53,053 bases of DNA from Cyclobacteriaceae bacterium (GTDB taxonomy: Bacteria; Bacteroidota; Bacteroidia; Cytophagales; Cyclobacteriaceae), in the NCBI GenBank assembly GCA_019638285.1, contig JAHBUB010000025.1, forward strand, positions 1 to 53,053, read 5' to 3'. The notes beneath the pieces are model-generated. The model worked only from the letters and a program-made list of their open reading frames with translations, had not been told where the DNA came from and did no database searches. The position numbers and the translations under genes were made by a program. This document shows, in pieces, positions 538 to 38,655 of this stretch (positions are counted from its first letter, which is position 1; each line of letters opens with the position of its first letter).

Positions 538-1314
538 TCACTCAAAGAATAAACGCAAACCTCGTTCTTCTCTGTATATAATTGGCTTAAGCTGAAATGC
601 CCCTTCTATGTTCTTTTCAGTAAGCACCTCCTCTTTTGACCCACTGGCTACCAATTGGCCATTTTGGATGAGGTGGATCACATCACCAAATCGGGCGGCC
701 AAGTTCAAGTCATGCACCACCCCCACCACTACTAAATCTTTTTGCTTTAAAAGTTCTATCACCTTGTGCATAAACTGAAATTGATAATGTATATCCAAAA
801 AGGTTAACGGTTCATCTAGCAAAAGATAACGTCCCTGATCAGGCAATGGATACCAAAGTTGTGTAAGCACGCGCGCAAAATGAACGCGCTGACGCTCTCC
901 TCCACTCAAAGTCAGGTAGTTTCGTTCTGCCATTTCTTCTACTTCAAAAAATTTCAAAGCAGCGATACAGGCCTCTTCGTCTACCTGTTTTGGTGCTCCG
1001 GCAAAATGAGGATAACGCCCCATCATTACAATCTCCCATACTTTTAGCGGAAATGCCAGATCAATATTCTGTGAAAGTACCGCCCTCATTCTGGCCAGGT
1101 TTTTATCCCGTAAGGTTTTACTATCCACGGATTGGTACATTACTTTGCCCTCATAATTTGTCATTTGCCTGCTAAGCACTTTCATCAAAGTAGATTTGCC
1201 GGCACCATTTGGCCCAATAATCAGGTTGAGTTTACCGGGCAGGAATTGAGCAGACACTTTATCGAGAAGGATCTTATCTCCAATACGAACAGTAATATTT
1301 TCGGCCTCAAGCAT
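538..1314 (-). CDS. hmuV: Haem/iron-complex ABC transporter ATP-binding protein, HmuV-like
   Basis: This is the cytoplasmic ATPase of a binding-protein-dependent importer. All ABC motifs are present in order: Walker A GPNGAGKST (34-42), Q-loop Gln82, signature LSGGE (136-140), Walker B LLLDE (164-168) and H-loop His201. At 258 aa it is the normal length for the HmuV/FecE/BtuD group. The MMGRYPH block after the Q-loop is typical of the haem and siderophore branch. It starts 3 bases after the hmuU stop and is the last gene of the receptor-hmuT-hmuU-hmuV run, so it is almost certainly co-transcribed and co-functional with them. Haem is preferred over cobalamin or siderophore because the partner binding protein looks like HmuT. 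That substrate is inferred, not shown by this gene alone. Confidence 0.9.
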   Translation of the reverse strand: MLEAENITVRIGDKILLDKVSAQFLPGKLNLIIGPNGAGKSTLMKVLSRQMTNYEGKVMYQSVDSKTLRDKNLARMRAVLSQNIDLAFPLKVWEIVMMGRYPHFAGAPKQVDEEACIAALKFFEVEEMAERNYLTLSGGERQRVHFARVLTQLWYPLPDQGRYLLLDEPLTFLDIHYQFQFMHKVIELLKQKDLVVVGVVHDLNLAARFGDVIHLIQNGQLVASGSKEEVLTEKNIEGAFQLKPIIYREERGLRLFFE

Positions 1315-1317
1315 ACA

Positions 1318-2349
1318 CTAAAAGTAATATTGTTTTTTGCGCAGTAAGGTGATGAATACAGGAACCCCGACTAGCGCGGTAACGATCCCGATGGGAAGTT
1401 CGGCAGGAGCCAAAAGCAGCCGCGAAACAAGATCTGCCATACTTAATAAAATACCTCCGACTATCGCACTCCCGATGATGAGAAACCTATTGTCCGAACC
1501 ACCCATCAAACGCAGAAGATGAGGCACCACAAGACCTACAAAACTGATCACACCCATAAATGCGGTAGACACTGCGACCAGTAGCACATTGAGTGTAATT
1601 ACTATTATCTGCAACCATTTTAAATTCACTCCAAGAAAAATCGCCTCATCCTCTCCCATCATCAGCGCATTGAGTTGTTTGGCATAGCGCATGGAAATGA
1701 TGGTACACACTACCGTAACTATACCAATGATCGTAACCGAAATCCAATTGGCCCCTGATAGCGTTCCCAGGTTCCAGAAGGTAATGGATCGGGCTTGAGG
1801 ATCGCGTGCTAGGTAAGAAAGAAATCCCACACCACTAAGAAAGAGTGCATTGATGGCAAGGCCCATAAGCAGTAAAGCCACCACAGAACTCTTTCCTGTG
1901 GCTCTGTTTTGAGACAATAAAAAGACAGCCACGGTGGATACCGCCCCGCCAATACAAGCCGCTAACGGCAAAGTCCACTCACCCAAATGAAACTTAATGA
2001 CAGAACCTAATACAAAATAAAGTGATGCGCCAAATGCCGCACCACTGGACGTGCCTATAAGACCAGGTTCTACAATGGGGTTGCGAAATAGGGCTTGCAT
2101 TAGTACACCCCCTACAGCAAGGCTTGCACCCACCAACACTCCGGCAAAAGCACGGGGCAACCTGATCTGCAAGAATATCCTTTCGTTCAAATTGAGTTCA
2201 TCCCCACTTATCCATTTGGAAATAGAAGATTGTATCTCTGTCCATGAAATAGTAATGGCTCCAAACTTTAAAGACAGAAAAAAAGTAATTATCAGAAGGA
2301 TTATAAGAACCGGAAATAATACTTTATTCTTTTTATTGAGTCTTTTCAT
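1318..2349 (-). CDS. hmuU: Haem/iron-complex ABC transporter permease, FecCD family, HmuU-like
   Basis: This is the inner-membrane permease, which would form a homodimer with two HmuV subunits. The 343-aa protein has an N-terminal anchor and about nine to ten hydrophobic segments. It carries the family block RLPRAFAGVLVGASLAVGG near residue 65, the FRNPIVEPGLIG stretch, and the conserved cytoplasmic coupling region GVISFVGLVVPHLLR near residue 265, which contacts the ATPase. Length and motifs match BtuC/FhuB/HmuU. Its first 17 bases overlap the end of hmuT and it lies 3 bases before hmuV, so translation is probably coupled. Substrate assignment follows the neighbouring HmuT-like protein. Confidence 0.9.
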   Translation of the reverse strand: MKRLNKKNKVLFPVLIILLIITFFLSLKFGAITISWTEIQSSISKWISGDELNLNERIFLQIRLPRAFAGVLVGASLAVGGVLMQALFRNPIVEPGLIGTSSGAAFGASLYFVLGSVIKFHLGEWTLPLAACIGGAVSTVAVFLLSQNRATGKSSVVALLLMGLAINALFLSGVGFLSYLARDPQARSITFWNLGTLSGANWISVTIIGIVTVVCTIISMRYAKQLNALMMGEDEAIFLGVNLKWLQIIVITLNVLLVAVSTAFMGVISFVGLVVPHLLRLMGGSDNRFLIIGSAIVGGILLSMADLVSRLLLAPAELPIGIVTALVGVPVFITLLRKKQYYF

Positions 2350-3211
2350 CTCGATGAATTAACTCCTGGAGCATAAGTATCACCTCGCCTGTTCTTGGGC
2401 CAAAGTATACCATATCATGTTCTTCTACGCGATAAATTCTGTTATTGGCAGCCGCACGGGTGCCCGCTACACCCGGTAGGGATTTTATTTGTTCAGGTGA
2501 ACCAAGACGGTCGTATCCGTAGTCAGTTAACAGAATTACATCTGGATCAGACTTGGCTATTACCTCAGCTGACAATTGCATCATACCTTTGTCTCCGGGA
2601 ATAGGAATTGTTCCTCCGGCCATTCGTATTAAGTCTCCGGTAGTACTATTTTCTGTCATGGTGAGATATAGGTTACCAGCTCTTCCATAATGAATAACCA
2701 CTACTTTTGGTTTTTCTGTGTACTTGGCCAGTGCTTCTTCTGCCCTACGTACATCCCGATCGAGCTTTGTGTTCAATGAGTCTGCGGCTTTCTCCTTTCC
2801 AAAATATTTTCCTATCTCTGATACCAGTGCTTTTGAACTTTCAATGTCGTTACCTTTTGTGTTAAATACCATCATTGGTATTTTCAATTCTGCCATTTGT
2901 TGCATCACCTGCTCGGGGCCTACATTATTATCGTGAATGATCATGGTCGGTTTCATAGAAAGTATCCCCTCTGTACTTAACGCCCGATGATACCCCACTG
3001 TGGGTAATTCTTTTATTTCGGGAGGATAGGTACTGGAAAGATCAACCGCAACGAGATCTTTTTGTGCATCTAATTCATAAATAATTTCATTGTATTGCTT
3101 GGAAAGGCACACTATCCTCTTTTCGTTTTCTGCCTTTTGATCCTTATTAGAGAATCTTCCACATCCGGTAAGTAGAATTACCAGGAGGTAAATAATATTA
3201 GACATTCTCAT
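2333..3211 (-). CDS. hmuT: Haem-binding lipoprotein of ABC importer, HmuT-like
   Basis: This is the periplasmic substrate-binding component, 292 aa, tethered by lipid: the N-terminus is hydrophobic and ends in the lipobox LLTGC (Cys near residue 17). A class III (BtuF/FhuD-like) binding fold is indicated by the RIVCLS start, the long central helix region and the SDPDVILLTDYG segment. The blocks VAVDLSSTYP and LPTVGYHRALSTEGILSMKP closely resemble those of haemin-binding HmuT proteins, where a Tyr in this area ligates the haem iron. This is the main reason for calling the operon haem-specific. The ATG at 3211 is used; a second ATG two codons in (3205) is possible. It overlaps hmuU by 17 bases and follows the TonB receptor by 56. 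Confidence 0.85.
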   Translation of the reverse strand: MRMSNIIYLLVILLTGCGRFSNKDQKAENEKRIVCLSKQYNEIIYELDAQKDLVAVDLSSTYPPEIKELPTVGYHRALSTEGILSMKPTMIIHDNNVGPEQVMQQMAELKIPMMVFNTKGNDIESSKALVSEIGKYFGKEKAADSLNTKLDRDVRRAEEALAKYTEKPKVVVIHYGRAGNLYLTMTENSTTGDLIRMAGGTIPIPGDKGMMQLSAEVIAKSDPDVILLTDYGYDRLGSPEQIKSLPGVAGTRAAANNRIYRVEEHDMVYFGPRTGEVILMLQELIHRDEKTQ

Positions 3212-3267
3212 AGTTATAATTTTAAAAAAAAAGAGAGCAGGTAGTGAACCCGCCCTCTGTTCTTGAT

Positions 3268-5654
3268 TTAGAATATGTATTTCAAATTTAATCCACCAAA
3301 GTAATTAATTTTATCGGGTGCTGGAATATATGCATCTGCTAACTGGTTAACGAAAACCATATAGTAGTATCGCTGTCCTGTAATATTATTTGCACCAAAA
3401 TATGCATCTATATCAAAATGATCTGAAACCATTTTATGATACCCCACCTTTGCGTTCACCAGGCGGTAGATTTGGGATTCAAATGCACCATCCGATGTGA
3501 TTGGCATAGAATCTTTGAATGAATAATTCAAATTGCCATAAAAGCCATTGTTGGCCGATAAATCGATACCCACATTGGCTACTATTGGAGATACACCTGC
3601 CACAGCCTTTCCTGTGTAGTCTGCAATGGCCTTTTGCCCTGCAACGATTGTCTCATACGTAAAATCTTTATACTTAAAATCTGAATAGGTAAGATTTGCA
3701 AACGGACGCGCATAATTTAAGAAACCTGTTGACGATTGATAAGCCTTATAGGCCACTGCAATTTCCAAGCCTCTATTTTGCTGCTTGCCGCCATTGGCTA
3801 TGTAGCTGTACAATGTGGTGGTGTTATTAAGAGGGACTGCTACAGATGTCATCTTATCAGAAAATTCAGCGTCAAATAATGCCACTTGATAATTTAATTT
3901 ACTGTCTAACAAAGAACCTTTTGTGCCAATCTCAAACTGATTGCCTATCTCGGGCCTTAGCCCGGTATTTAATTCACCAGTAGTAGAAATTACAATATTG
4001 GAACTAACGGGTGCCTTGTATCCTTTGCTATAAGAAGCATAAGCAGAAAGGGAACTGTTAAATACTTTGTTAATGGCAAAATGAGGTGACACCATGTTAT
4101 CATAAGTAATTTCATAATGTGTAGGCTTGCCTCCTGAAGGAATATTGTTGGCTGCTGAATAAACGCGATCGTTCAATTCAATATTCATTGTGCTCATGCC
4201 TACTCCAGCAGTAATAGAAACATTATGAGGCAGCGATAGTGTCCATTCAGTAAATGAGGATGTGGTTCCACTCATGGCGGACTGGTTACTTCTCAAATTG
4301 CTAATTATATTATATCCACTGAGGTTGGTGCTGTCCGCAACCATTCCATAACCTATAATCTGAGCATATTGACGTTGTGATTCAACTCCAACAATACCAC
4401 TTAGGCTTACGTTGGATCCTAGCAAAAAATTCATGTCCAAGGTAGAACGCACACCATAGTTGATAGGATTTTTATCTGTCCAACCGCCCGCAGAACTTGA
4501 GTTGTTGCTAACCCCTGATCCGAAAAAAGTAGTCGTATTACTAATTTTGTCGTTGAAGGTATAAATGTGACTTAGTCCCGCCCTGAAGCTGGTAATTTCT
4601 GAGTGTGCGTTATTCTTGATGTACCTGGGGTTGCCAGTATAGTCTCCGGTATTGTACTGATCAATGGTAAGTTCCCCTCCACGCTCATCATAACTGTGGC
4701 TGTATCCTAAATAAGTATTGATCCTTTGTTTTGAATTGGGATAAAATTCAGCGGCCATATTTACAAAATCTTTTTTTGATTCATTATGACTCATGAATCC
4801 ATCTGAATGCTGATTTCCATAATTCAACAAAAGCGAAGCACGATCACTGCCAATTTCTAATTGAGTGGTATATCGTTGAAGTCCATAATCACCAACCATC
4901 ACCTGCTGGCCAATGGATGTTTTTCCAGGTTCAGGTTTTTTGGTTTCAAGATTAACTACTCCGGCAATTGCCAATCCGTACAACGACCCAGCTGGACCTT
5001 TGATTACTTCTACATTTCCTACAGACCCAAAATCAATATCGTCCATCAAAGTGACTCCTTCCGCATCCGTAATTGGAATACCATTTAGATACACCTTATA
5101 GCCCTGACCATCAAAGTTGTTGTTTGCTCCTTTGAAGCCCACACCACTACCATACCCTCTGATATTAAACTGTTGACCAGAAGATACAGCGCGTCTTGAC
5201 ATATATACACCAGGTACGTTTGTGTTGATGGCATCGTCTAAAAACAAACCAGTGCCTCGTTGAATTTCCACTTCACCCATCTTGGAAATAGATTCCTTGG
5301 CTGATATAAAATAGAGTGGTTGGCATTGGAGGTTGCGGTGATTACCACATTATCAAGTATTTGATTGGCCATGACCATACCAATACTTAATTCATCATTG
5401 CAGTTTTCAACTCTTTGTCTTACCTCCCTGTAACCAACAAAAGAAACAATGATATCAACTGGACCATTGCAGGGTAAAGAGAACATTCCATCATTATCTG
5501 TTGTAGTTCCACTACCTCCTACAAGCCGTACATTAGCGTTTGCCATTGGCTTGTTATCCACGGCATCAAATACCTTTCCTTTAAGTTGACCCGATTGGGC
5601 CATCATAGAAAGGCTAATCAATAATCCTAAAAAGGACATGTATATTTTTTTCAT
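3268..5654 (-). pseudogene. TonB-dependent outer-membrane receptor, interrupted by a one-base frameshift
   Basis: This would be the outer-membrane gate feeding HmuTUV. The first part, from the ATG at 5654, encodes a signal peptide (MKKIYMSFLGLLISLSMMAQ) and a carboxypeptidase-regulatory-like beta domain, then a LDNVVITAT plug entry. The frame then runs off into another frame and stops at 5238. The second frame, open from before 5280 to 3268, holds the plug (FNIRGYGSGVGFKG, VEVIKGPAGSLYG) and a full 22-strand-type barrel ending in an aromatic residue (LKYIF). Adding one base at the A4 run 5308-5311 (T4 in the coding sense) restores a 795-aa receptor reading SIFISAKESISKMGEVEIQ across the junction. 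This is either a real inactivating or phase-variable deletion or a homopolymer error. The rest of both frames is intact, suggesting a recent event or an artefact. Confidence 0.85.
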
Positions 5655-5891
5655 GAATATTTTATAAGTAACAACCCAAGTACGCACGCATAATTAATTA
5701 CACATACATAAAATGAGTTCATTGAAAATTATTAGAAAGTATTAATTTCAGTTTATGGAATATCCATCAACTTTGATTGCAGTATATCAAAGGCAAAAGA
5801 TTACATCAGCATTATATATAAATTACAAAACTGCTCAATGTAACAGGAAGCCTCCATCACATGCATCGTCCAACATAAAATGGTTAGACAT

Positions 5892-6949: not shown

Positions 6950-8227
6950 ATGACCCTTAAAAGACGAGATTTTATAAAACTTACTGCCGGAAGTACAGCT
7001 GGCGCAGCATTTTTAACTTCCATTACCTCCTCTGCTCAAACAACCACCAAATCAAACTCCCCGCTTGATAAGCTGAAGCCCATGACGGGTGATGTAAAAC
7101 CCATCACCGTACAAGAAAGGGAGGCACGAATCGAAAAAGCACAACGGTTAATGACGGATAACAAGATCAAAGCTTTGTATCTTGAAGGAGGTACCAGTTT
7201 GAATTATTTTACCGGTATCCGTTGGGGAAGAAGTGAAAGAATGATGGCAGCCATTATTCCTGCTAAAGGAGAGGTAAAATATATTAGTCCTGCCTTTGAA
7301 GCAGCACGCGTGCAAGAGTTGATGACCATTGGAAGTGATATCCGCGTGTGGGAAGAACATGAAAGTCCTTACAAACAAGTAGTACTTGCATTTAAAGATT
7401 TCGGAATAAATAGCGGTAACATCGGTATAGAAGAAGAGGTGCGCTTCTTCCTATTTGATGGTATCCATAAAGAGGCATCCAACCTTAACTATGTAAGTGG
7501 TACGCCAGTTACTGCCGAGTGTAGGAAGTATAAATCACCAGCAGAAATTGCATTGCTGCAAAAAGCCAATAACATTGCCATCGAGGCATATAAAGCAAGT
7601 GTGGCCATGCTTGAAGAAGGAATGACTCCACAAGAATTTTCTGCCATCACAGCAGAAGCGCACAAACGCCTTGGCGTGAGCGGTGGAATTGGTGCCAACT
7701 TTGGTGAGCCTTCCGCTTATCCACACGGAAGCATTCAACAACAATACTTGAAAAAAGGGGATATTGTACTGATGGATGGTGTGTGCAAAGTGGAAGGATA
7801 TAGTTCAGACATTAGCCGTACGATCGTATTTGGCGCTGAACCAACGGATCGTCAAAAAGAAGTATGGAATCTACAGAGAAAGTCTCAAGATGCTGGTTTT
7901 GCTGCAGCTAAACTAGGAGACCCCTGCGAAAACGTAGACATCGCTGCGCGCAAAGTGCTTACCGATGCTGGTTATGGTCCAGGATATAAAGTACCTGGAT
8001 GTCCTCACCGCACGGGTCACGGTATAGGAATGGATACCCACGAATGGGGCAACATGGTCTTGGGCAATAAAGAGCCATTAAGACCCGGCATGTGTTTTAG
8101 TATTGAACCTACCATCTCTATATATGGTGAATTTGGTGTACGCACCGAAGACTGTGCCTATATGACGGAAGAAGGTATTAAATGGTTTACCCAGCCAAGT
8201 CCATCCATCGACAAAACCTTTGCTTAA
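6950..8227 (+). CDS. Tat-exported M24 (Xaa-Pro dipeptidase/creatinase-like) metallopeptidase, array copy 1
   Basis: Predicted periplasmic metallopeptidase of the aminopeptidase P/prolidase fold, 425 aa. The N-terminus has a twin-arginine motif (KRRDFIK, 4-10) and a hydrophobic segment. Position 25, where copies 2-5 have the lipobox Cys, is Ile, and a signal peptidase I site (S-S-A before Gln30) follows, so this copy should be soluble. An N-terminal creatinase-like domain spans about 60-190. The catalytic domain has all five metal ligands: Asp276, Asp287, His357, Glu386 and Glu400. The block around the first Asp reads MDGVC with KVEGYSSD, against MDGGC with xVGGY in the others. It is the first gene of the array, 47 bases before copy 2, and lies behind two operator-like dyads. 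The substrate cannot be read from sequence; imino-dipeptides or creatine-like amides are possibilities from the family. Confidence 0.88.
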   Translation: MTLKRRDFIKLTAGSTAGAAFLTSITSSAQTTTKSNSPLDKLKPMTGDVKPITVQEREARIEKAQRLMTDNKIKALYLEGGTSLNYFTGIRWGRSERMMAAIIPAKGEVKYISPAFEAARVQELMTIGSDIRVWEEHESPYKQVVLAFKDFGINSGNIGIEEEVRFFLFDGIHKEASNLNYVSGTPVTAECRKYKSPAEIALLQKANNIAIEAYKASVAMLEEGMTPQEFSAITAEAHKRLGVSGGIGANFGEPSAYPHGSIQQQYLKKGDIVLMDGVCKVEGYSSDISRTIVFGAEPTDRQKEVWNLQRKSQDAGFAAAKLGDPCENVDIAARKVLTDAGYGPGYKVPGCPHRTGHGIGMDTHEWGNMVLGNKEPLRPGMCFSIEPTISIYGEFGVRTEDCAYMTEEGIKWFTQPSPSIDKTFA

Positions 8228-8274
8228 AAAAGAACCTACCAACTATCTAAATCAATACTTAACCTCAACACATT

Positions 8275-9561
8275 ATGACCCTTAAGAGAAGAGATTTTAT
8301 AAAACTTACCGCAGGAACAACTGCTGGTGTTGCATTATTAGCCGGCTGTTCAACACCTGCTTCTACCCCACCCCCTAGCAGCAGTCCACTGGACAAGCTT
8401 CAGTCAATGACCAAAGACATTGTGCCAATTTCCAAAGCGGAAAGAGAATCAAGAATAGAAAAGGCACAGCGTCTTATGACTGAAAATAAGATTGAAGCGT
8501 TGTACCTGGATGGAGGCACAAGCATGGCTTATTTTACCGGCATCAACTGGGGCACCAGCGAGCGGATGATGGCTGCTATTATTCCTGCAAAAGGAGAAGT
8601 AAAGTATATCAGCCCTGCTTTTGAGGCGGCACGCGTAGAAGAGTTGATGACCATTGGTAAAGACATCCGCGTGTGGGAAGAACATGAAAGTCCCTACAAG
8701 CAAGTAGCATTGGCATTTAAAGACTTCGGAATTCGCAGTGGCAATATCGCTATGGAAGAGCGGGTAAGATTCTTCTTATTTGATGGGATTCGAAAAGAAG
8801 CATCAAACCTCAACTACGTAAGTGGAGACCCAGTAACCATCCCCTGCCGCATGTTCAAATCACCTGCAGAACTTGCATTGATGCAACGTGCCAACGACAT
8901 TACCATAGAAGCTTACAAAGCGAGCGTAGCCATGATGGAAGAAGGGATGACACCACAGGAATTCAGTGCGATCACTGCAGATGCGCACAAACGGCTTGGG
9001 GCTAGAGGTGGCATAGGTGTAAATTTTGGTGAACCGTCAGCTTACCCACACGGCAGTATTCAACAACAATATTTGAAAAAAGGAGATATCGCTCTTATGG
9101 ATGGAGGATGCAGTGTAGGTGGGTATAGTTCTGACATCAGCCGTACCATTGTGTTTGGTGCTGAACCTACCGCTCGCCAAACTGAAGTTTGGAATTTGCA
9201 GAAAAAATCTCAAGCCGCTGGCTTTGCTGCTGCCAAATTAGGCGACCCATGTGAGAATGTGGACATCGCAGCGCGCAAAGTGCTTACCGATGCGGGTTAT
9301 GGCCCAGGATACAAAGTACCGGGTTGTCCTCATCGCACGGGACATGGTATTGGAATGGATGGACATGAGTGGGGTAACATGGTGTTAGGAAATAAACAGC
9401 CTCTTATGCCTGGCATGTGCTTCAGCATTGAACCAACCATTTCTATCTATGGAGAATTCGGTGTACGTCTTGAGGACTGCGCCTATATGACGGAAGAAGG
9501 AGTAAAATGGTTTACTGTGCCAAGTCCTGCTATCGACAAACCCTTTCATGACGTGGCTTAG
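8275..9561 (+). CDS. Tat lipoprotein M24 metallopeptidase, array copy 2
   Basis: 428-aa paralogue with KRRDFIK twin-arginine motif and lipobox LLAGC (Cys25), followed by a Ser/Pro/Thr-rich linker, so it is probably exported folded and lipid-anchored in the periplasm. Domain 2 retains Asp276, Asp287, His357, Glu386 and Glu400 plus the accessory His259 (AYPHG) and His364 (GMDGHE). DNA from 8480 to 8900 is identical to copy 4 (11127-11547), and from 8413 there is a single further difference, while the flanks diverge normally. This points to recent gene conversion. It follows copy 1 by 47 bases and precedes copy 3 by 40. Confidence 0.88.
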   Translation: MTLKRRDFIKLTAGTTAGVALLAGCSTPASTPPPSSSPLDKLQSMTKDIVPISKAERESRIEKAQRLMTENKIEALYLDGGTSMAYFTGINWGTSERMMAAIIPAKGEVKYISPAFEAARVEELMTIGKDIRVWEEHESPYKQVALAFKDFGIRSGNIAMEERVRFFLFDGIRKEASNLNYVSGDPVTIPCRMFKSPAELALMQRANDITIEAYKASVAMMEEGMTPQEFSAITADAHKRLGARGGIGVNFGEPSAYPHGSIQQQYLKKGDIALMDGGCSVGGYSSDISRTIVFGAEPTARQTEVWNLQKKSQAAGFAAAKLGDPCENVDIAARKVLTDAGYGPGYKVPGCPHRTGHGIGMDGHEWGNMVLGNKQPLMPGMCFSIEPTISIYGEFGVRLEDCAYMTEEGVKWFTVPSPAIDKPFHDVA

Positions 9562-9601
9562 TTCACCTAATTAATAAATAATATTCTATCAATAAATAAT
9601 C

Positions 9602-10888
9602 ATGGCCCTTAATAGAAGAGACTTTATAAAACTTTCAGCGGGCACAACTGCCGGAGCAGCATTGTTGGCTGGCTGCTCAACACCGACAGCCACACCCCCT
9701 TCTGCAAGCAGTCCACTGGACAAACTTCAACCAATGACGAAAGACATTGTGCCTATTTCCAAAGCGGAAAGGGAAGCGAGAATCGCAAAGGCACAGCGTC
9801 TTATGACCGAAAATAAGATTGAAGCGCTGTACCTCGATGGCGGCATAAGCATGTCATACTTTACAGGAATTGACTGGGGAACCAGTGAGCGGATGATGGC
9901 TGCCATAATACCCGCCAAGGGTGAAGTCAAATACATTAGTCCAGCATTTGAAGCCGCACGCGTGGAAGAACTGATGACCATTGGTAATGATATACGCGTA
10001 TGGGAAGAACATGAAAGTCCTTACAAGCAAGTAGCGTTAGCATTTAAAGACTTTGGAATTCGCAGCGGTAACATCGCCATGGAGGAACAGGTGAGGTACT
10101 TCTTGTTTGATGGGATTCGAAAAGAGGCGTCAAATCTCAACTATGTAAGTGGTGATCCGGTTACTGCCGGCTGTCGCATGTTCAAATCACCTGCAGAAAT
10201 AGCATTGATGCAACGGGCCAGCGATGTAACCATAGAAGCTTATAAGGCGAGTGTGGCCATGTTGGAAGAAGGAATGACACCACAGGATTTTAATGCAATT
10301 GCTACCGAGGCGCATAAACGACTTGGTGCTCGTGGTGGCATTGACGTTAATTTTGGCGAAGCCTCTGCCTACCCACATGGAAGTATTCAACAGCAATATC
10401 TGAAAAAAGGTGATGTTGTGTTGATGGACGGAGGGTGCGGTGTGGGCGGATATCGTTCTGATATCAGCCGCACCATTGTATTCGGTGCAGCGCCTACCGA
10501 TAGACAACGCGAGGTTTGGGACCTGGAAAAGAAATCCCAAGCCGCAGGTTTTACAGCTGCCAAATTGGGTGATCCTTGTGAGAATGTGGACATCGCTGCA
10601 CGGAAGGTGCTTACCGATGCCGGCTACGGGCCTGGATACAAAGTACCTGGGTGTCCTCATCGTACGGGTCATGGAATTGGAATGAAGGTACATGAATGGG
10701 GCTATATGGTGCTTGGAAATAAACAACCCCTTATGCCTGGCATGTGCTTTAGCATTGAACCTACTATTTCTATCTATGGAGAATTTGGTGTAAGGCTTGA
10801 AGACTGCGCTTACATGACGGAAGAGGGAGTAAAATGGTTTACTGGGCAAAGCCACTCTATCGAAAAACCCTTTGGAGATTTCAGTTAA
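9602..10888 (+). CDS. Tat lipoprotein M24 metallopeptidase, array copy 3
   Basis: 428 aa; twin-arginine motif is NRRDFIK and the lipobox is LLAGC (Cys25). The five metal ligands are conserved (Asp276, Asp287, His357, Glu386, Glu400). It differs from all other copies just after the His ligand: GMKVHEWGY replaces GMDGHEWGN (Asp362 to Lys, Gly363 to Val, Asn to Tyr), which should lie beside the substrate pocket and alter charge. Another private change is RSDISR with Arg before the second metal Asp pair. These point to altered specificity rather than loss of activity. Spacing is 40 bases after copy 2 and 33 before copy 4, consistent with one transcript. Confidence 0.87.
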   Translation: MALNRRDFIKLSAGTTAGAALLAGCSTPTATPPSASSPLDKLQPMTKDIVPISKAEREARIAKAQRLMTENKIEALYLDGGISMSYFTGIDWGTSERMMAAIIPAKGEVKYISPAFEAARVEELMTIGNDIRVWEEHESPYKQVALAFKDFGIRSGNIAMEEQVRYFLFDGIRKEASNLNYVSGDPVTAGCRMFKSPAEIALMQRASDVTIEAYKASVAMLEEGMTPQDFNAIATEAHKRLGARGGIDVNFGEASAYPHGSIQQQYLKKGDVVLMDGGCGVGGYRSDISRTIVFGAAPTDRQREVWDLEKKSQAAGFTAAKLGDPCENVDIAARKVLTDAGYGPGYKVPGCPHRTGHGIGMKVHEWGYMVLGNKQPLMPGMCFSIEPTISIYGEFGVRLEDCAYMTEEGVKWFTGQSHSIEKPFGDFS

Positions 10889-10921
10889 TCCGACTTGAAT
10901 TAATTATCTTATCTAAAAACT

Positions 10922-12208
10922 ATGACCCTTAAAAGAAGAGATTTTATAAAACTTTCAGCAGGCACAACTGCTGGTTTAGCTTTTTTGTCCGGCTGCACCA
11001 CACCGTCAACTATTCCGCCTTCTACAGATAGCCCAATGGACAAACTTCAGTCAATGACGAAAGACATTGTGCCAATTTCCAAAGCGGAAAGAGAATCAAG
11101 AATAGAAAAGGCACAGCGTCTTATGGCTGAAAATAAGATTGAAGCGTTGTACCTGGATGGAGGCACAAGCATGGCTTATTTTACCGGCATCAACTGGGGC
11201 ACCAGCGAGCGGATGATGGCTGCTATTATTCCTGCAAAAGGAGAAGTAAAGTATATCAGCCCTGCTTTTGAGGCGGCACGCGTAGAAGAGTTGATGACCA
11301 TTGGTAAAGACATCCGCGTGTGGGAAGAACATGAAAGTCCCTACAAGCAAGTAGCATTGGCATTTAAAGACTTCGGAATTCGCAGTGGCAATATCGCTAT
11401 GGAAGAGCGGGTAAGATTCTTCTTATTTGATGGGATTCGAAAAGAAGCATCAAACCTCAACTACGTAAGTGGAGACCCAGTAACCATCCCCTGCCGCATG
11501 TTCAAATCACCTGCAGAACTTGCATTGATGCAACGTGCCAACGACATCACCATAGAAGCCTACAAAGCGAGTGTGGCCATGTTGGAAGAAGGAATGACAC
11601 CACAGGAATTTAGGGCAATCACCTCGGAGGCACATAAACGCCTTGGAGCGAGTGGTGGAATGGGTGCCAATTTTGGTGAAGCATCCGCCTACCCGCATGG
11701 CAGCATTCAGCAACAATATCTTAAAAAGGGAGATATCATTATCATGGATGGAGGATGCAAAGTGGGCGGATATAGCTCTGACATCAGCCGCACAATCGTA
11801 TTTGGTGCAGAACCTACGGACAGGCAACGCGAAGTATGGAATTTGGAAAAGGAGTCACAGGCTGCCGGCTTTGCCGCTGCCAAACTAGGAGACCCTTGCG
11901 AGAATGTAGACATTGCTGCACGCAAGGTACTCACTGATGCAGGTTATGGACCTGGATATAAAGTTCCGGGACTTCCTCATAGAACAGGTCACGGAATTGG
12001 AATGGATGGACACGAATGGGGTAATATGGTATTGGGAAATAAACAGCCTCTTATGCCCGGCATGTGTTTTAGTATTGAACCCAACATTTCGATCTATGGG
12101 GAATTTGGCGTACGTCTTGAAGATTGTGCTTACATGACGGAAGATGGTGTAAAATGGTTTACAGAACCTAGCCCATCTATTGATAAGCCTTTTCATGATG
12201 TAGCATAA
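10922..12208 (+). CDS. Tat lipoprotein M24 metallopeptidase, array copy 4
   Basis: 428 aa with KRRDFIK and lipobox FLSGC (Cys25). All metal ligands are present. The N-terminal domain and the linker into the catalytic domain are nearly identical to copy 2 (DNA 11127-11547 identical to 8480-8900), whereas the catalytic half is closer in places to copies 3 and 5, for example PGLPHRTGH and SIEPNIS. The gene is thus a mosaic. The 33-base gap from copy 3 is the shortest in the array. Confidence 0.87.
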   Translation: MTLKRRDFIKLSAGTTAGLAFLSGCTTPSTIPPSTDSPMDKLQSMTKDIVPISKAERESRIEKAQRLMAENKIEALYLDGGTSMAYFTGINWGTSERMMAAIIPAKGEVKYISPAFEAARVEELMTIGKDIRVWEEHESPYKQVALAFKDFGIRSGNIAMEERVRFFLFDGIRKEASNLNYVSGDPVTIPCRMFKSPAELALMQRANDITIEAYKASVAMLEEGMTPQEFRAITSEAHKRLGASGGMGANFGEASAYPHGSIQQQYLKKGDIIIMDGGCKVGGYSSDISRTIVFGAEPTDRQREVWNLEKESQAAGFAAAKLGDPCENVDIAARKVLTDAGYGPGYKVPGLPHRTGHGIGMDGHEWGNMVLGNKQPLMPGMCFSIEPNISIYGEFGVRLEDCAYMTEDGVKWFTEPSPSIDKPFHDVA

Positions 12209-12245
12209 TCTGTTAAGTTGATTTAAACTATTTTATTTAATTACT

Positions 12246-13532
12246 ATGACAATAAAAAGAAGAGACTTTATAAAACTTTCTGTAGGAACAACGGCAGGGG
12301 CAGCATTTCTTAGTGCATGTACCACACCTGACTCCTCCAGTATAAAATCAGGCGGTCCTATGGATGGATTAAAATCCATGACAACAGATATTGTTCCCAT
12401 TTCGGTAGAAGAACGGCTTGCAAGAATTGAAAAAGCACAGCGCTTGATGACTGAAAATAAAATCAATGCCTTGTTTTTGGACGGTGGCACCACCATGGAA
12501 TATTTTACAGGAGTTCGATGGGGAACAAGTGAAAGGATGATGTCAGTCATTATTCCTGCAAAAGGAGAATTGAAGTATGTAAGTCCTGCCTTTGAAGCCG
12601 CACGCGTAGAAGAATTGATGACCATTGGAAATGACATTCGTGTGTGGGAAGAACATGAAAGCCCCTACAAGCAAGTAGCGTTAGCACTTAAAGATATGGG
12701 AATATCCACTGGCACCATTGCCATGGAAGAGCGGGTTCGATTCTTTTTATACGATGGTGTAAGAAAAGAAGCCCCAAATCTCAATTATGTAAGTGGAGAT
12801 CCGGTGACCATCCCCTGCCGTATGTTCAAATCAGCATCAGAGCTTGCATTGATGCAACGTGCCAACGACATTACACTAAGAGTACACAAGATTTGTACGA
12901 GTATGCTCGAAGAAGGTATGACCCCTCAGGACTTTCAAGCCTTATTTACCGAAGCTCATAAACGACTCGGTGCACGAGGCGGTTGTATTGTCAATTTCGG
13001 AGAAGCATCCGCCTATCCACATGGCAGTATCCAACAGCAGTATCTCAAAAAAGGAGATGTTATTATTATGGATGGAGGTTGCAGTGTGGGGGGGTACGGA
13101 TCTGATATTTCCAGAACGGTTGTATTTGGTGCTGATCCCACCGACAGACAACGCGAAATATGGAACCTGGAAAAGGAATCTCAATCAGCAGGCTTTGCTG
13201 CTGCAATATTGGGAGACCCCTGTGAGAATGTTGACATCGCTGCCAGAAAAGTATTGGAAGATGCAGGTTATGGTCCTGGTTATAAACTTCCAGGCTTACC
13301 ACACCGCACAGGCCACGGTATTGGCATGGACGGCCACGAATGGGGCAATATGGTATTGGGCAACAAACAACCATTTATGCCGGGTATGTGCTTTAGTATC
13401 GAGCCTAACATCTCCATTTATGGAGAGTTTGGAATGCGATTGGAGGACTGTGCTTATATGACAGAAGAAGGCGTAAAATGGTTTACACCACAAAGCCACT
13501 CTATTGATGATCCTTTCAAAGGCGTAGCCTAA
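12246..13532 (+). CDS. Tat lipoprotein M24 metallopeptidase, array copy 5
   Basis: Last and most divergent of the lipoprotein copies, 428 aa. Twin-arginine motif KRRDFIK, lipobox FLSAC (Cys25), and a linker differing from the others (TTPDSSSIKSGG). The helix leading to the catalytic domain reads TLRVHKICTSM instead of TIEAYKASVAM, and GGCIVNFGEA replaces GGIGVNFGE. The five ligands Asp, Asp, His, Glu, Glu are kept. It shares PGLPHRTGH and SIEPNIS with copy 4. The stop at 13532 is followed by a strong palindromic terminator, marking the end of the operon. Confidence 0.87.
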   Translation: MTIKRRDFIKLSVGTTAGAAFLSACTTPDSSSIKSGGPMDGLKSMTTDIVPISVEERLARIEKAQRLMTENKINALFLDGGTTMEYFTGVRWGTSERMMSVIIPAKGELKYVSPAFEAARVEELMTIGNDIRVWEEHESPYKQVALALKDMGISTGTIAMEERVRFFLYDGVRKEAPNLNYVSGDPVTIPCRMFKSASELALMQRANDITLRVHKICTSMLEEGMTPQDFQALFTEAHKRLGARGGCIVNFGEASAYPHGSIQQQYLKKGDVIIMDGGCSVGGYGSDISRTVVFGADPTDRQREIWNLEKESQSAGFAAAILGDPCENVDIAARKVLEDAGYGPGYKLPGLPHRTGHGIGMDGHEWGNMVLGNKQPFMPGMCFSIEPNISIYGEFGMRLEDCAYMTEEGVKWFTPQSHSIDDPFKGVA

Positions 13533-13569: not shown

Positions 13570-13603
13570 AACAAACCCTTTGAGATATCTCAAAGGGTTT
13601 GTT
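13570..13603 (+). terminator. 34-nt perfect palindrome ending the M24 array
   Basis: AACAAACCCTTTGAGAT pairs exactly with ATCTCAAAGGGTTTGTT, 17-bp arms with no spacer, followed by ATTTTTA. It lies 38 bases past the last M24 stop and works as an intrinsic terminator candidate. The M48 start follows within 26 bases. Confidence 0.8.
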
Positions 13604-13628
13604 ATTTTTAATGGGTAACCCCACTACA

Positions 13629-14903
13629 ATGAAATACTTCCTGCTCATCACTTCCATCATTTTTAGCAGCCATAATTCCTTTGGCACCACAACTCTTCAA
13701 AGTGATTCCATCGCACAGGCCTCCTCTCAAGTCATATCATTTGATGTAGAAAAGGAAACACAAAAATATATTGACACCCTTACCCCAGCGCAAAAAGAAA
13801 AGTCTGATTCCTATTTTGAAGGCGGCTATTGGTTGCTTCTTTGGAGCCTTCTTTACGGTATCGCAGTGGCATGGATCTTTTTAACAAAAGGTCTGTCCAT
13901 TAGAATAAAGAGCATCGCCTCAAAAGTGAAGAATATAAATTTACAAAACGCAATATATTTTATGCTCTACTTTATTGCAGCTTATATATTGTCTTTTCCC
14001 CTCAACTATTATAAGAATTTTTACCGCGAACACCAGTACGACCTTTCTAACCTCTCTATCGGTGCATGGATGGGAGAAGAAATGATTGGATTGATCCTTA
14101 TGACAATATTTGGAAGTATCATACTGGCCATTCTTTATATGATCATGCGCAAAGTAAAGGAAAAGTGGTGGATATGGGGAGGACTTGTCACTTTCTGCTT
14201 TCTCGTATTTATCATGTTTATCGGTCCCGTATTCATCAGCCCTCTTTTTAATGATTACAAGTCATTAGAAGAAGGCCCGGTGAGAGAATCTATACTTTCC
14301 ATGGCCAGGGCAAACAGTGTGCCTGCCGATAACGTATATCAATTTGATGCCTCCAAACAAAGCGATAGGATCAGTGCCAACGTAAGTGGTATTGGAAGTA
14401 CCATTCGCGTTTCTCTCAATGATAATTTGCTCAATCGTTGCACACCCGAAGAAATAAAAGCAGTAATGGGACACGAACTTGGTCATTACGTGCTTAACCA
14501 TGGGCCTGAGAATTTAATCTATTTTAGCCTTATCATCATCATAGGATTTGCGTTTGTGCATTGGTCATTTCAAAAGACAGTCATTAAATGGGGAGATAAT
14601 TGGAAACTTAAAGATATCTCTGATGTGGCTGGATTTCCTTTATTCGTCATACTCTTCGCTGTCTATCTATTTCTGGCCACTCCATTCCTGAACAGCATTA
14701 TAAGGAGCGCTGAAATGGAATCAGATGTGTTTGGTCTCAATGCAGCACACGAGCCAGATGGCTTCGCCTCTGTGGCAATGAAACTTTCCGAATACAGAAA
14801 AATAAATCCAGGTTATTGGGAAGAAATAATCTTCTTTGACCATCCCAGCGGACATACCAGGGTGCACACTGCCATGAAATGGAAGGCGGAAAACTTAAAT
14901 TAA
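13629..14903 (+). CDS. M48 family integral-membrane zinc metalloprotease, Ste24/CAAX protease 1-like
   Basis: Membrane-embedded zinc protease of 424 aa from the ATG at 13629, chosen because it gives a signal peptide (MKYFLLITSIIF). An ATG at 13611 would add six residues, and the frame upstream runs into the terminator. It has an M48_N-type N-terminal membrane half with helices near 68-88, 108-125, 150-172 and 184-204, then the zinc site HELGH (282-286) with the third ligand Glu362 in EMESD, and two further helices between. The ending CHTALKWK-like segment is FDHPSGHTRVHTAMKW, where the HPS motif is typical of Ste24 relatives. Bacterial members are implicated in membrane protein quality control; the exact substrate is unknown. 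It is separated from the M24 array by a terminator, so it is probably transcribed independently. Confidence 0.85.
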   Translation: MKYFLLITSIIFSSHNSFGTTTLQSDSIAQASSQVISFDVEKETQKYIDTLTPAQKEKSDSYFEGGYWLLLWSLLYGIAVAWIFLTKGLSIRIKSIASKVKNINLQNAIYFMLYFIAAYILSFPLNYYKNFYREHQYDLSNLSIGAWMGEEMIGLILMTIFGSIILAILYMIMRKVKEKWWIWGGLVTFCFLVFIMFIGPVFISPLFNDYKSLEEGPVRESILSMARANSVPADNVYQFDASKQSDRISANVSGIGSTIRVSLNDNLLNRCTPEEIKAVMGHELGHYVLNHGPENLIYFSLIIIIGFAFVHWSFQKTVIKWGDNWKLKDISDVAGFPLFVILFAVYLFLATPFLNSIIRSAEMESDVFGLNAAHEPDGFASVAMKLSEYRKINPGYWEEIIFFDHPSGHTRVHTAMKWKAENLN

Positions 14904-33657: not shown

Positions 33658-35145
33658 CTATTTCCTAAATACAGGATGTTCCGGAAGGAGGGAAATGTCA
33701 ATCACTTTCCCATCTTTAATTACAGCACTTACTTTTCTAATATTAGAAATGTCCGCTAAAGGATTAGCATTCAACAAAACTATATCAGCAATTTTATTCT
33801 TCTCAATCGTTCCAAAATTATCCAATCCTCTGGCCGCCATTGCCCCTGTTTTTGTTACACTTACTATAGCCTGAGAGGGTGTCATCCCTAACTCAACCAA
33901 TCCCTCAATGGCCATAATACTGCCAGAACCTGGCTCCTGATTGGGAGGTTTGGGAGCTTGCAAAAACTCTGGAGCAGATCCCTGGTAACTGTCAGTGCCG
34001 ATAGTTACAAGGCAACCGGCATCAATTAATTTTCTCGCATTGGTTCGGGCTATTTCCAGATAATCTTCTGCATCTTGTGCTTCACGTCCCTTTTGGGTTG
34101 AAGTTTTAATATGTTCAGGGCCAAATGCCTCATCTCTTCCTTTAATACTTTCAAGAACTGTCTTTCTTTTTTGTACATGTTGTTGCCATACATCCCCTGT
34201 AATCGTATTGCTTAGCATGGCACAAATAATATTACGATCCTTAATAATTTGTACCAATTCATCCGGCAGTACTCTGGAAGAGTGTTCAGGATGCTGAATG
34301 AGATCAATGCCTGCTTCAATAGACATGCGTAGCCCCTCCAAACTAGTCGAATGGGTCTCTGCTACAAGTCCTCTTTTATGTGCTTGCTCCACAATCACCT
34401 TTTGGGCCCTTGTGGAAAACGCAATCATGACAGGATTATCAAAATGAGATGTACCTCCGTACTTAATAAAATCAGGTCCTTTATCAAGGTATTTATTGAT
34501 CGCCACATTAAGTTCATCGGGCAACATATCCATAAGATCCTCCCCACTTCCCTGGGTAATAAAATCATTCCACTGCTCTTGAAATACATTGATTTCAGAA
34601 GGTTTCGCCAATGCCCAGCTGACAGAAAACGGACCGCCCCACCCCACTATGTTACCTGCCACCAACATTCGGGGCCCTGCCAATTCTCCTCTGTTAATAC
34701 GATCCCGAACCGCCATCAAAGGAAGTAAAGCACCAAAACTATCACGAATAGTAGTTACGCCATATTTCAATTGAATTTGCGCAAACTCTGTCACCAGCGC
34801 CTCACTTTGCGATTCATATTTTATAATTGTCTCAGGGCGGTTCATACCACCGTAAATGGAGGCGTGTACATTAGAGTCTACAAAACCAGGTGTGATAAAC
34901 TTGCCCTTTCCATCTATCACTTTTGTGTTTTTGGGGATTTTAGTGGAGGATGCTTTTCCGATCTCTTCGATTCTACCATTTCTAATAAGTACCGTTTGAT
35001 CAGAAATAGGTTCACCTCCATTTCCATCAATTAACGTGACATTTGTTATTGCCAGTGTCGGCTGATTTTGAGAATAGCTGATGTTGTACGCCAAAAGCGT
35101 GGAAAAAATTGCAATAAGAGAAATCTTGTAAAGCAATTGTTGCAT
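33658..35145 (-). CDS. Secreted amidohydrolase-superfamily protein (imidazolonepropionase/prolidase-like)
   Basis: 495-aa exported protein with signal peptide (MQQLLYKISLIAIFSTLLAYNISYSQ). The urease-type fold begins with the N-terminal strand set LAITNVTLIDGNGGEPI and shows the KFITPGFVD entry. The first metal motif reads N-V-H (Asn92, His94) instead of H-x-H, while other ligands are present: the carbamyl Lys in FIKYGGTSH, His in VAETHSTS, His in LIQHPEHS, and Asp in TIGTDSY. A mononuclear or altered metal site is likely. The C-terminal ADIVLLNANPLADISNIRKV block closes the beta sandwich. Substrate unknown; many such envelope enzymes act on peptides or cyclic amides. Confidence 0.82.
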   Translation of the reverse strand: MQQLLYKISLIAIFSTLLAYNISYSQNQPTLAITNVTLIDGNGGEPISDQTVLIRNGRIEEIGKASSTKIPKNTKVIDGKGKFITPGFVDSNVHASIYGGMNRPETIIKYESQSEALVTEFAQIQLKYGVTTIRDSFGALLPLMAVRDRINRGELAGPRMLVAGNIVGWGGPFSVSWALAKPSEINVFQEQWNDFITQGSGEDLMDMLPDELNVAINKYLDKGPDFIKYGGTSHFDNPVMIAFSTRAQKVIVEQAHKRGLVAETHSTSLEGLRMSIEAGIDLIQHPEHSSRVLPDELVQIIKDRNIICAMLSNTITGDVWQQHVQKRKTVLESIKGRDEAFGPEHIKTSTQKGREAQDAEDYLEIARTNARKLIDAGCLVTIGTDSYQGSAPEFLQAPKPPNQEPGSGSIMAIEGLVELGMTPSQAIVSVTKTGAMAARGLDNFGTIEKNKIADIVLLNANPLADISNIRKVSAVIKDGKVIDISLLPEHPVFRK

Positions 35146-35621
35146 AGGGAAAGGGTGTTTGCCCTAAAGCTACACTTTTCAAACATTTTAAGTGATTGAT
35201 TATATCTGAAAATGAATTGGATAATGCTCGCTATTTAGGATTATATGAAGTTGTTTTTAAAGAGGCGATAGGAATGGTTCATCTTATTACCAGATAGAAG
35301 GACTAAAATTAGGGTTGTGGGAACAGCCTCCGTTGGGTATCATCTCTCCTCAAAAACCCAAGTATGATTATAAGGATTATCCTTTACCATACGCATCCAA
35401 TTGTTACTACCAGTTAAACCCTATAATTCGTCCGGTTTTGGCCAAATTTGGTCAGAAACACCTAATTATGAGGATAATACTAATTCTAGGGTTCATTCTT
35501 TTTCCTCAATACATGCCTATTTAACCACACATCTATACATTCTACGAACTCCTCTACTGAATTATTTCATTCTTTAAATTTTAGAGCCAAATTGGTGCTG
35601 AATTAAAAAAATTACTATCAC
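35146..35621. other. 476-base divergent intergenic region
   Basis: Between two divergent amidohydrolase genes. No tRNA, terminator or complete promoter element was recognised. A 69-codon TTG-initiated frame at 35315-35524 lacks any recognisable domain and is not supported. A CCAAATTTGG palindrome occurs near 35443-35452. Confidence 0.5.
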
Positions 35622-38600
35622 ATGAAGAAGTTCAAATTTATGCTAACCCTCATTCTGCTGGTTTCAGGATGGGGAGCCTGGGCACAGGAGACCTTTCCCC
35701 GAAATGACGTAAAGGACATCCGGACGGGTCAATATGCTTTTACCAATGCCACTATTGTGGTAGACCCACAAACTACCTTGCAAAATGCCACATTGTTAAT
35801 TAAGGGCGACAAAATAGAGCAAGTGGGGGCCAATCTTTCCGTACCTAAAGGGTATGTGACCATTGACCTTAAAGGGAAGTTTATTTATCCTTCACTCATT
35901 GATATGTTCACTAACTACGGTTTGCCTGATGTAGAAAGGCCAACCAGTAGCCCCTATGGAGGAAAAGAACAGACACAGTCTAAAACAAAGGGGGCCTATA
36001 ATGCCAACGAAGCGATAAAGGCGCACTACAATGCTGCTGATGAATTTACTATTAATTCCAAAACAGCTGAAGAATTACGGAAATCCGGATTCGGATCCGT
36101 CCTTACCACCAAATACGATGGACTCGCCCGCGGTACAAGCGCCTTCGTTACTCTAAGTGAGAAAAATGATAATACTGCCCTGCTAAGACAAAAGGCCGCT
36201 GCTCAATATTCGTTTGCAAAAGGAACATCTTCCCAAACCTATCCTGTTTCGCTGATGGGATTTATTGCAGTGCTCCGTCAAACTCACTTTGATGCTGAAT
36301 GGTTTGGAAGCCAGACACCTCGGCCATTTGCAGACAATTCCCTGGAGGCCTGGATCCAAAATCAAAGACTGCCACAAGTTTTTGATGCCGGCAGCTGGAT
36401 CAACGTTTTACGTGCCGATAAACTCGGTGATGAGTTTGGTACACAGTATATCATTAAAGGTGGTGGAGATGAATACCAGCGTATCAATGAAGTAAAAGCT
36501 TCAAATGCCATTCTTATAGAACCTGTAAATTTCCCTGATGCCTACGATGTAGAAGATCCATTGGATGCACAAAATGTTACGCTTGAAGAAATGAAGCATT
36601 GGGAGCTGGCACCTGCCAACCTTGCTGCGTTGGAAAAAAACGGAATTAATTTTTCTATCACTACTTCAGGCCTTAAAAAAACAAGTGACTTCCTACCCAA
36701 CGTAAGAAAAGCCATCGCTAATGGTCTTACAGAAACCACTGCCTTAAAGGCTTTGACTACCACCCCTGCCCAATTACTTAAAATTGATAATCAGGTGGGT
36801 AGCCTGAAAAAAGGTATGTTGGCCAACTTCATCATTACTTCCGGCAAATTGTTTGATGATAAAACCATCATTCATCAAAACTGGGTGCAAGGTGAATCCT
36901 ATAACATAAAGCCTCTAAATGCCAGGGATTTTAGCGGTACCTATAATCTCTCCATCAATGGAAAAAGCTATAATCTTGAAGTAACAGGAGAAGCTGGCAG
37001 CCATAAGGCCAAAGTAAAAATTAACGACACAACAGTAGATGCAATTGCTACCTTTGACAACGATCTGGTTACCCTTAGTTTCAGGCCAGAGAAAGACAGT
37101 AAGGGAAGCATTCGTCTTTCAGGATGGAGCGAAGGAAATGGCTGGAAAGGAAAGGGACAATTAATTGACGGCAGCTGGGTATCATGGACAGGTGAACGGA
37201 CTGGCGATGCAATAGCCCAAGCCACTAATAAAACCAATAATGAAGGAGCCAAAGAAGAGCTGGGAAAAGTTATTTACCCATTCAACGGGCATGGCTACCC
37301 TAGCCTTCCGGTTACAGAAACAATCTTAATTAAGAACGCAACCGTTTGGACCAACGAGAGCGAAGGTGTGCTTCAGAATACAGATGTACTCTTGAAAGAT
37401 GGCAAGATTGCCAAGATTGGAAAGAACTTGTCTGATGCCAGCGCCAAAGTAGTCGATGGCACCGGCAAGCATCTCACCGCAGGAATTATTGATGAACACT
37501 CTCATATTGGAGCAGCTAGCGTCAACGATGTGGCCACCAACTCAGGCATGGTGCGCATGGGTGACGTACTGGACTCTGAAGCCATAAACATTTACAGAGC
37601 GCTGGCCGGTGGTGTGGTAGCCGTTCAGGTACTTCACGGATCCGCCAACCCCATCGGAGGGCAATCTGCGATGATCAAATTGCGCTGGGGAGAGTCTCCT
37701 GAAAATCTAAAAATCCAGGGGGCAGATGGGTTCATTAAGTTTGCGCTCGGAGAAAACGTAAAGAGATCCAGCAATCCAAACTCCATACGTTTTCCACAAA
37801 CACGCATGGGGGTAGAACAGGTGTATGTAGACGCCTTCACCAATGCACGAGAGTATGAGAAAAAATGGAATGCCTACAACAGTCTTTCCGCAAAAGCAAA
37901 ACCATTGGCCCTTAAACCAAGAAGGGACTTGGCTGATGAGACCATGTTAGAGATTGTCAACAGGAAAAGATTCATTACCTGCCACTCTTACGTACAGTCT
38001 GAAATAAACATGCTGATGAAGGTGGCTGAGCGATTTGATTTTCGCGTCAACACATTCACTCATATTTTAGAGGGCTATAAGGTAGCAGACAAAATGTTTG
38101 AACACGGTGCTGCTGGCTCCACTTTTGCCGACTGGTGGAACTATAAATGGGAGGTTCGCTATGCCATCCCTTATAATGCCGCCATTATGCAACGTGCTGG
38201 TATCGTTACTGCCATCAATTCCGATGATGCAGAGATGGGCCGTAGGTTAAATCAGGAAGCAGCAAAATCGGTGAAGTACGCAGGAATGTCGGAAGAAGAT
38301 GCACTTAAAATGGTGACGCTGAATCCCGCCAAAATGCTTCACCTGGACGGTCAGATGGGAAGTATTAAACCGGGTAAATCAGCCGATGTGGTACTGTGGA
38401 ATGATCATCCCCTATCTGTATATGCGAAGCCATTGAAAACCATTGGTGGAAAAGTGTACTTTGATGTAGAGAAAGACAAGAAGCAAAACAACAAGGCCCT
38501 TGATACCGAACGTGCCCGATTGATCCAAAAAATGAAAGGCGCTAAGAAGTCAGGCAGTCCAACTCAGCACGGTGATGGAAGAATCCAGGTTCAGTTTCAT

Positions 38601-38636: not shown

Positions 38637-38655
38637 AACTATTAACTGAGATATT

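Follow-up and report, generated by a model that had tools for sequence, protein, structure and literature searches.

Five head-to-tail open reading frames (ORFs) on the + strand, at positions 6950-13532 of contig JAHBUB010000025.1 from a Cyclobacteriaceae bacterium (assembly GCA_019638285.1; the whole 53,053-nt stretch is hereafter the window), encode M24 metallopeptidases with twin-arginine translocation (Tat) leaders. The array is a real, old, partly homogenized, and partly diverged set of probably exported M24B enzymes. Its ORF coordinates agree with a first-pass annotation of the window, which had reported five M24 genes on one strand, of 425 to 428 amino acids (aa) and with gaps of 47, 40, 33, and 37 nt. 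This spacing and the shared strand suggest that the five genes form one co-transcribed operon. Pairwise identity between copies is 70 to 87% in nucleotides and 73 to 92% in amino acids. A total of 11 places in the source genome (a draft of 3.98 Mb in 85 contigs, 99.4% complete) match PF00557, and five of these are the array. The features are as follows, with types A, B, and C taken from the trees described below.

6950..8227, +, copy 1 (type A), M24B peptidase with Tat leader, 425 aa (from ORF, Pfam, and tree); residues of note in the alignment are Ile25 (Cys in copies 2 to 5), V278, and T363
7022..7024, +, Ile25 codon of copy 1, at the lipobox Cys position kept by type A orthologues
8275..9561, +, copy 2 (type B), M24B peptidase, probable Tat lipoprotein, 428 aa
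8347..8349, +, lipobox-type Cys25 codon of copy 2
8480..8900, +, gene conversion tract of 421 nt, copy 2 side, identical to 11127-11547
9602..10888, +, copy 3 (type B), M24B peptidase, probable Tat lipoprotein, 428 aa, with D248, K362, V363, and Y368
9674..9676, +, lipobox-type Cys25 codon of copy 3
10922..12208, +, copy 4 (type B), M24B peptidase, probable Tat lipoprotein, 428 aa
10994..10996, +, lipobox-type Cys25 codon of copy 4
11127..11547, +, gene conversion tract of 421 nt, copy 4 side, identical to 8480-8900
12246..13532, +, copy 5 (type C), M24B peptidase, probable Tat lipoprotein, 428 aa
12318..12320, +, lipobox-type Cys25 codon of copy 5

Family, fold, and predicted export of the array proteins

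All five copies match Creatinase_N (PF01321; 61 to 62 bits against a Pfam cut-off of 22) and Peptidase_M24 (PF00557; 154 to 160 bits against a cut-off of 23). The first-pass annotation had claimed an RRDFIK motif and all five M24 metal ligands for every copy, and both are present in all five: the N-termini fit M(T/A)(L/I)(K/N)RRDFIK, and D276, D287, H357, E386, and E400 are kept throughout. All 53 sequences of an alignment that includes the five copies have these ligands unchanged, and likewise H259, H353, R354, H364, and R398. In a sequence search with copies 2 and 3, the closest solved relatives were the Xanthomonas campestris "Proline dipeptidase" entries 4r60, 5cik, and 5cde (E values of 2e-95 to 3e-96 for copy 2 and 4e-98 to 6e-99 for copy 3). 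The fold comparison covered copy 2, whose AlphaFold2 model, built from 53 sequences, has a mean predicted local distance difference test score of 88.7, with residues 1 to 32 below 50. The two-domain M24 fold is seen in this predicted model, and the first PDB chain returned by Foldseek was 4r60 (template modeling scores of 0.86/0.92; 41 to 42% identity); creatinase and ectoine hydrolase folds also match it, less strongly than 4r60.

The array proteins resemble the X. campestris Xaa-Pro dipeptidase (PDB 4R60, 5CIK, 5CDE, 5FCF, and 5FCH) in two-domain architecture, ligands, and Arg372, with ~42% identity over 391 aligned columns; the match begins at query residue 40 to 42, so that the leader has no counterpart. 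Arg372 aligns with R398 of the array, and 5cde is an "R372A mutant" by title, its chain reading "gvaled" opposite the query's "gvrled" at this position. The prolidase of Lactococcus lactis (PDB 4ZNG, 6XMR, 7N02, and 7K3U) shares the M24B prolidase fold at ~30% identity; R354 of the array is aligned to its R293, the residue changed in 7k3u, and G93 and S95 lie opposite its residues 36 and 38, which are changed in 7n02 and 6xmr. Escherichia coli PepP and PepQ have the M24B catalytic domain in common with the array, but their NCBIfam models score far below cut-off for it, and neither enzyme is known to have an exported leader. Because the best solved relatives are those of X. campestris, R398 is kept, and no equivalog cut-off is reached, we file the copies by relationship as M24B enzymes of the X. 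campestris dipeptidase type and as putative prolidases, rather than as PepQ or PepP equivalogs. What marks this variant of a familiar enzyme class is its Tat-lipoprotein form and the conserved array of three types.

The leader was surveyed in 87 rows, comprising the five copies and 82 proteins from 79 loci of relatives (the incomplete row L049_1 and the second L057 protein, 46% identical, were left out). Twin arginines occur within the first 14 residues in 83 of the 87 rows, a count that may be slightly raised by a preference for the motif in picking relatives' start codons, and three of the four exceptions have KR instead. Since the twin arginine is this widespread, the Tat leader is, by this alignment, a trait of a mostly single-copy Bacteroidota subfamily. 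The earlier description of a Tat-exported array thus stands as regards the motif, but the leader is not peculiar to the array. The single-copy Tat-leader M24 proteins of Bacteroidota are ~52 to 77% identical to the array proteins, with the same leader and domains, and differ from the array in usually being encoded by one gene. The source genome has two TatC matches over cut-off, and Tat export of the array proteins is predicted.

Copies 2 to 5 are probably Tat lipoproteins, with Cys25 in the lipobox contexts LAGC, LAGC, LSGC, and LSAC, respectively. A lipobox-type Cys occurs in 42 of the 87 rows, and about half of the single-copy Bacteroidota relatives are without one. Copy 1 has probably shifted from a tethered to a soluble protein, because it has Ile25 while the type A orthologues L010, L021_1, and L022_1 have Cys25. 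In surface lipoproteins of Bacteroidota, the Cys is directly followed by an acidic export motif (K-(D/E)2, SDDDD, or SDDFE), according to PMC5080379. No such motif was found right after Cys25 in copies 2 to 5, where the residues run CSTPAS, CSTPTA, CTTPST, and CTTPDS; the published motifs come from other Bacteroidota classes and are only suggestive here. Since the acidic motif is absent, a periplasm-facing orientation of the tethered copies is the better guess.

Copy types in relatives, gene conversion, and divergence

Amplification of this gene in the genus is not confined to the window. Among 62 genomes (gene counted at an E value of ≤1e-100), 26 have the gene, with five copies in the window's own genome, three in G026/HKST-UBA63, two adjacent copies in G422/UBA2371, and two on separate contigs in G434; UBA2338 has two copies. 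The first pass had named single copies throughout the relatives as grounds for refuting its reading, and these counts show otherwise. In wider samples, which overlap the genus set and in which scoring was limited to the four best candidates of each genome, the gene is present in 33 of 390 genomes of the order and 17 of 395 of the phylum, own genome included; multiple copies appear there in the own genome alone. Four of 79 loci taken from named genomes (the best 80 of 122 were kept; some are short or at contig ends) have a second copy near the first: L021, L022, L023, and L057, the second gene of L057 being a different protein, 46% identical. By contig coordinates, L021 is G026 (also fetched as L102) and L022 is G422.

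The full-length tree (41 rows) gives three types. Type A comprises copy 1, L021_1, L022_1, and L010 (support of 100/100); type B comprises copies 2, 3, and 4 with L021_2 and L023_1; and type C comprises copy 5, L021_3, L022_2, and L023_2, with the single-copy L003 basal (99/97). Type B holds in the N-domain tree (95/88). The arrays of L021, L022, and L023 each have a CorA-type transporter gene before them and an M48 gene after. Between these two genes, the order A-B-C is kept in L021, while L022 is without B and L023 is without A; three type B copies were found in the window's genome only. The amplification thus is, as read from trees and gene order, old and layered, with an ordered A-B-C set common to relatives; the window has probably tripled B, most simply by local duplication. 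The first-pass picture of an amplified and diversified set survives in both respects, with its history corrected from a single amplification to an old A-B-C set that has a probable local triplication of B and gene conversion.

Gene conversion is the explanation that the sequence pattern supports for the tract shared by copies 2 and 4. Neither this tract nor the lipobox-type Cys25 figured in the first-pass annotation. The two copies are identical over 421 nt, 98.5% identical over the preceding 67 nt, 77.5% before that, and 80.2% after. The run spans 156 shared polymorphic sites, a length reached in none of 2000 permutations (largest permuted run, 35). It extends from residue 69 to ~209, covering Creatinase_N (60 to 193) and ending a few residues into the catalytic domain, which starts at 202. 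Weaker shared runs between copies 2 and 5 (P = 0.0015), 3 and 4 (P = 0.011), and 4 and 5 (P = 0.01; all uncorrected) may mark older conversion events. A B/C mosaic origin of copy 4 was also considered; in the domain trees, its N-domain sides with copy 2, and its C-domain has no firm place.

Ratios of nonsynonymous to synonymous divergence (dN/dS) were examined in 23 pairs from residue 48 onward; dS was finite in 12, where dN/dS was 0.018 to 0.066, and exceeded 1.2 in 9 of those 12, while synonymous sites were saturated in the other 11. The ratios are only rough because synonymous sites are mostly near saturation; they indicate purifying selection in pairwise comparison, and none suggests relaxed constraint. 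Relaxed selection on some copies was looked for and rejected, with no sign of it in the 12 computable pairs (dN/dS of ≤0.066); relaxed selection in all copies, which the first pass had named as refuting its reading, is thus not indicated.

Divergence between the types was assessed at positions where conservation across the other rows is 90% or more, among 98 rows (near-duplicates and L057_2 were dropped beforehand, and L057_1 lies outside the remaining rows). Type A has six fixed changes at such positions, M203L, D208N, T210A, G278V, E309Q, and G363T, compared with one to three in six three-member control clades. Every other row with a residue at these two sites keeps T210 and G278; the latter lies two residues past ligand D276, and G363 adjoins H364. 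By plain count, 2 of the 13 tagged sites fixed in type A (278 and 363) are three residues or fewer from a ligand or a catalytic His, and we claim no enrichment of type-specific sites near the active site. The fixed residues of type C's own are at family-variable sites, and many fall in the stretch from 212 to 248. At residues 363 and 368, copies 1, 2, 4, and 5 have Gly or Thr and Asn, respectively, where the X. campestris enzyme has Ile and Tyr; copy 3, with V363 and Y368, resembles that enzyme. Residues 91 and 94 also vary among copies and flank the position opposite residue 36 of the L. lactis prolidase. PMC4213023 describes an N-domain loop in E. coli PepQ that extends from one subunit into the active site of its partner, and the region around residues 91 and 94 may be the same loop.

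Two single loci stand beside this pattern. In G017, a syntenic locus (L100:7988-9271) has a single copy that groups with type C and carries ten changes at family-conserved sites, C191L among them; types A and B may have been lost there before a phase of fast change. In a metagenome-assembled genome titled Woeseiaceae (Pseudomonadota), a relative (63%) and the second M24 gene (46%) follow an MR_MLE enolase-superfamily gene (L057:8880-13854); horizontal transfer or a binning error would account for them.

Substrate, division of specificity, and alternatives

The reading we prefer, with a probability somewhat above even, is that of a periplasmic, mostly tethered, Tat-exported prolidase-type set with partly divided specificity. 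The products of the five genes would be dinuclear metallopeptidases of the prolidase type (M24B, Xaa-Pro dipeptidase-like), located in the periplasm, that cross the membrane folded via Tat, presumably metal-loaded already; Tat export would allow metal loading before translocation. An N-terminal lipid would hold copies 2 to 5 on a membrane, facing the periplasm, and copy 1 would be soluble. The enzymes would finish the breakdown of proline-containing peptides, with Xaa-Pro dipeptides as the expected substrates. The first pass had proposed imino-dipeptides, and these are still the most likely substrate class, as the nearest structures are Xaa-Pro dipeptidases. The conserved types A, B, and C would differ in substrate preference, most clearly type A and copy 3, which are the best candidates for changed specificity; types B and C may differ less. 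Prolidases are usually treated as cytosolic housekeeping enzymes. This Bacteroidota subfamily apparently exports prolidase-type enzymes folded, often as lipoproteins, and the array bears on whether final peptide hydrolysis occurs in the periplasm of these bacteria and on why a dinuclear metal enzyme would go through Tat. Three types kept side by side also offer a natural paralogue set for probing the determinants of prolidase specificity. Among the papers listed (part of a long result list), none described the subfamily, its Tat-lipoprotein form, or the array, and none was the report of the X. campestris structures.

Several results weigh against this explanation or parts of it. All five copies score below the NCBIfam equivalog cut-offs (NF040821, 124 to 138 bits against 630; NF008131, 59 to 71 bits against 465); the same families match other subfamily members, with cut-offs given for the first member only. 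Among the curated Tat-signal models, Pfam TAT_signal passes its cut-off in copy 3 alone, falls short of it in copy 2, and is unlisted for copies 1, 4, and 5, and TIGR01409 has copy 3 as its sole listed match, which passes the cut-off. A single copy is seen in 22 of the 26 gene-bearing genus genomes, at least three of which (G029, G431, and G006) are cut by contig ends. Support for type B is weak (83/92, with internal order open); in the C-domain tree, types A and C hold while type B falls apart. In the N-domain tree, L022_2, which the full tree assigns to type C, groups with type A (84/86); this complicates a simple type picture and may point to more exchange among the copies of that species. 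Divided specificity itself would rest mainly on type A and copy 3, because fixed changes at highly conserved positions number one in type B and none in type C. Smaller controls reach similar counts to type A (0, 0, and 5 in two-member clades; 0 to 6 in six single rows), and the single-copy L003 has 10 changes. Type A therefore stands out among clades of its size, but fast change is not special to arrays. E309Q is also found in copy 2, L021_2, and L023_1, G363T was read in three of four type A rows (L010 being cut), and the variable residues are located by alignment position only.

The likeliest alternative, though unlikely in our judgment, is dosage, in which all copies catalyze the same reaction and are kept for the amount of one exported prolidase, their differences being the tolerated drift of old duplicates. 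Intact ligands in all five copies, the homogenization of copies 2 and 4, the small differences between types B and C at family-conserved sites, and the tripling of B in the window's genome only are what this account would lead one to expect. It fits less well with the persistence of distinct types A, B, and C across species despite synonymous sites mostly near saturation, with type A being fixed for changes at otherwise invariant sites, one of them two residues past a metal ligand, and with an identical tract that excludes nearly all of the catalytic domain.

Creatinase and ectoine hydrolase hydrolyze other C-N bonds with the same fold, and we give a still smaller probability to the subfamily, or at least type A, cleaving another C-N bond, with prolidase activity absent or incidental. 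The weaker matches of these two folds to the copy 2 model, M24 NCBIfam scores far under the equivalog cut-offs, and the lack of any neighbor common enough to point to a peptide pathway lean this way. However, the nearest solved relatives are dipeptidases (~42% identity), the Arg mutated in 5cde is kept, and three single-copy loci (L029, L031, and L045) have mutually similar downstream genes, of which the one scanned, that of L029, matches S10 serine carboxypeptidases.

We regard as improbable a combinatorial scheme in which co-expressed paralogues form mixed dimers. The N-domain would be kept alike by conversion (copies 2 and 4) and the catalytic domains would be free to diverge, giving many active-site combinations, with copy 1, soluble and altered near a metal ligand and a catalytic His, carrying a new reaction. 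An assembly artefact, with fewer real copies multiplied by the assembler, would find an opening in a draft of 85 contigs and in 421 identical bases, but it is ruled out for practical purposes by orthologous three-copy and two-copy arrays of like order and synteny in separately assembled genomes, by 13 to 30% DNA difference between copies, and by the position of copy 3 between identical tracts beyond which copies 2 and 4 are only ~80% alike.

Neighboring genes and locus context

The gene that follows the array is a conserved array neighbor in relatives, for which we claim no functional part.

13599..14903, +, M48-type membrane metallopeptidase (CAAX protease-like)

The CorA-type metal transporter gene of relatives lies just upstream of the array at L102:12096-13289 (-), L022:8682-9899 (+), and L023:5204-6397 (+); no such gene was found next to the array in the window, and the source genome has one CorA match elsewhere. 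Neighborhood proved a poor guide to substrate: 43 same-strand neighbors within 200 nt at 76 loci fell into 33 groups, none with more than three members, and no widely common neighbor was found at these loci (10 of the 43 neighbors were scanned). A Bacteroidota promoter motif gave one match in the window, compared with 2.61 expected, and none upstream of 6950. A megablast-mode search found no match to plasmids.

Upstream of the array, on the - strand, positions 538-5280 encode an ABC ATPase, an FecCD permease, a BtuF/IsdE-like binding protein, and a TonB-dependent receptor, likely an iron, heme, or cobalamin uptake operon. These four genes are beside the M24 gene in G017 and G029, and three of them are in the stretch read from G026. 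The receptor gene (3268-5687, -) is split into two overlapping frames, both of which match one continuous protein in G026 and G029, indicating a frameshift that is either real or from assembly. Elsewhere in the window, positions 33658-39957 hold three close amidohydrolase-family genes, one of 1004 aa.

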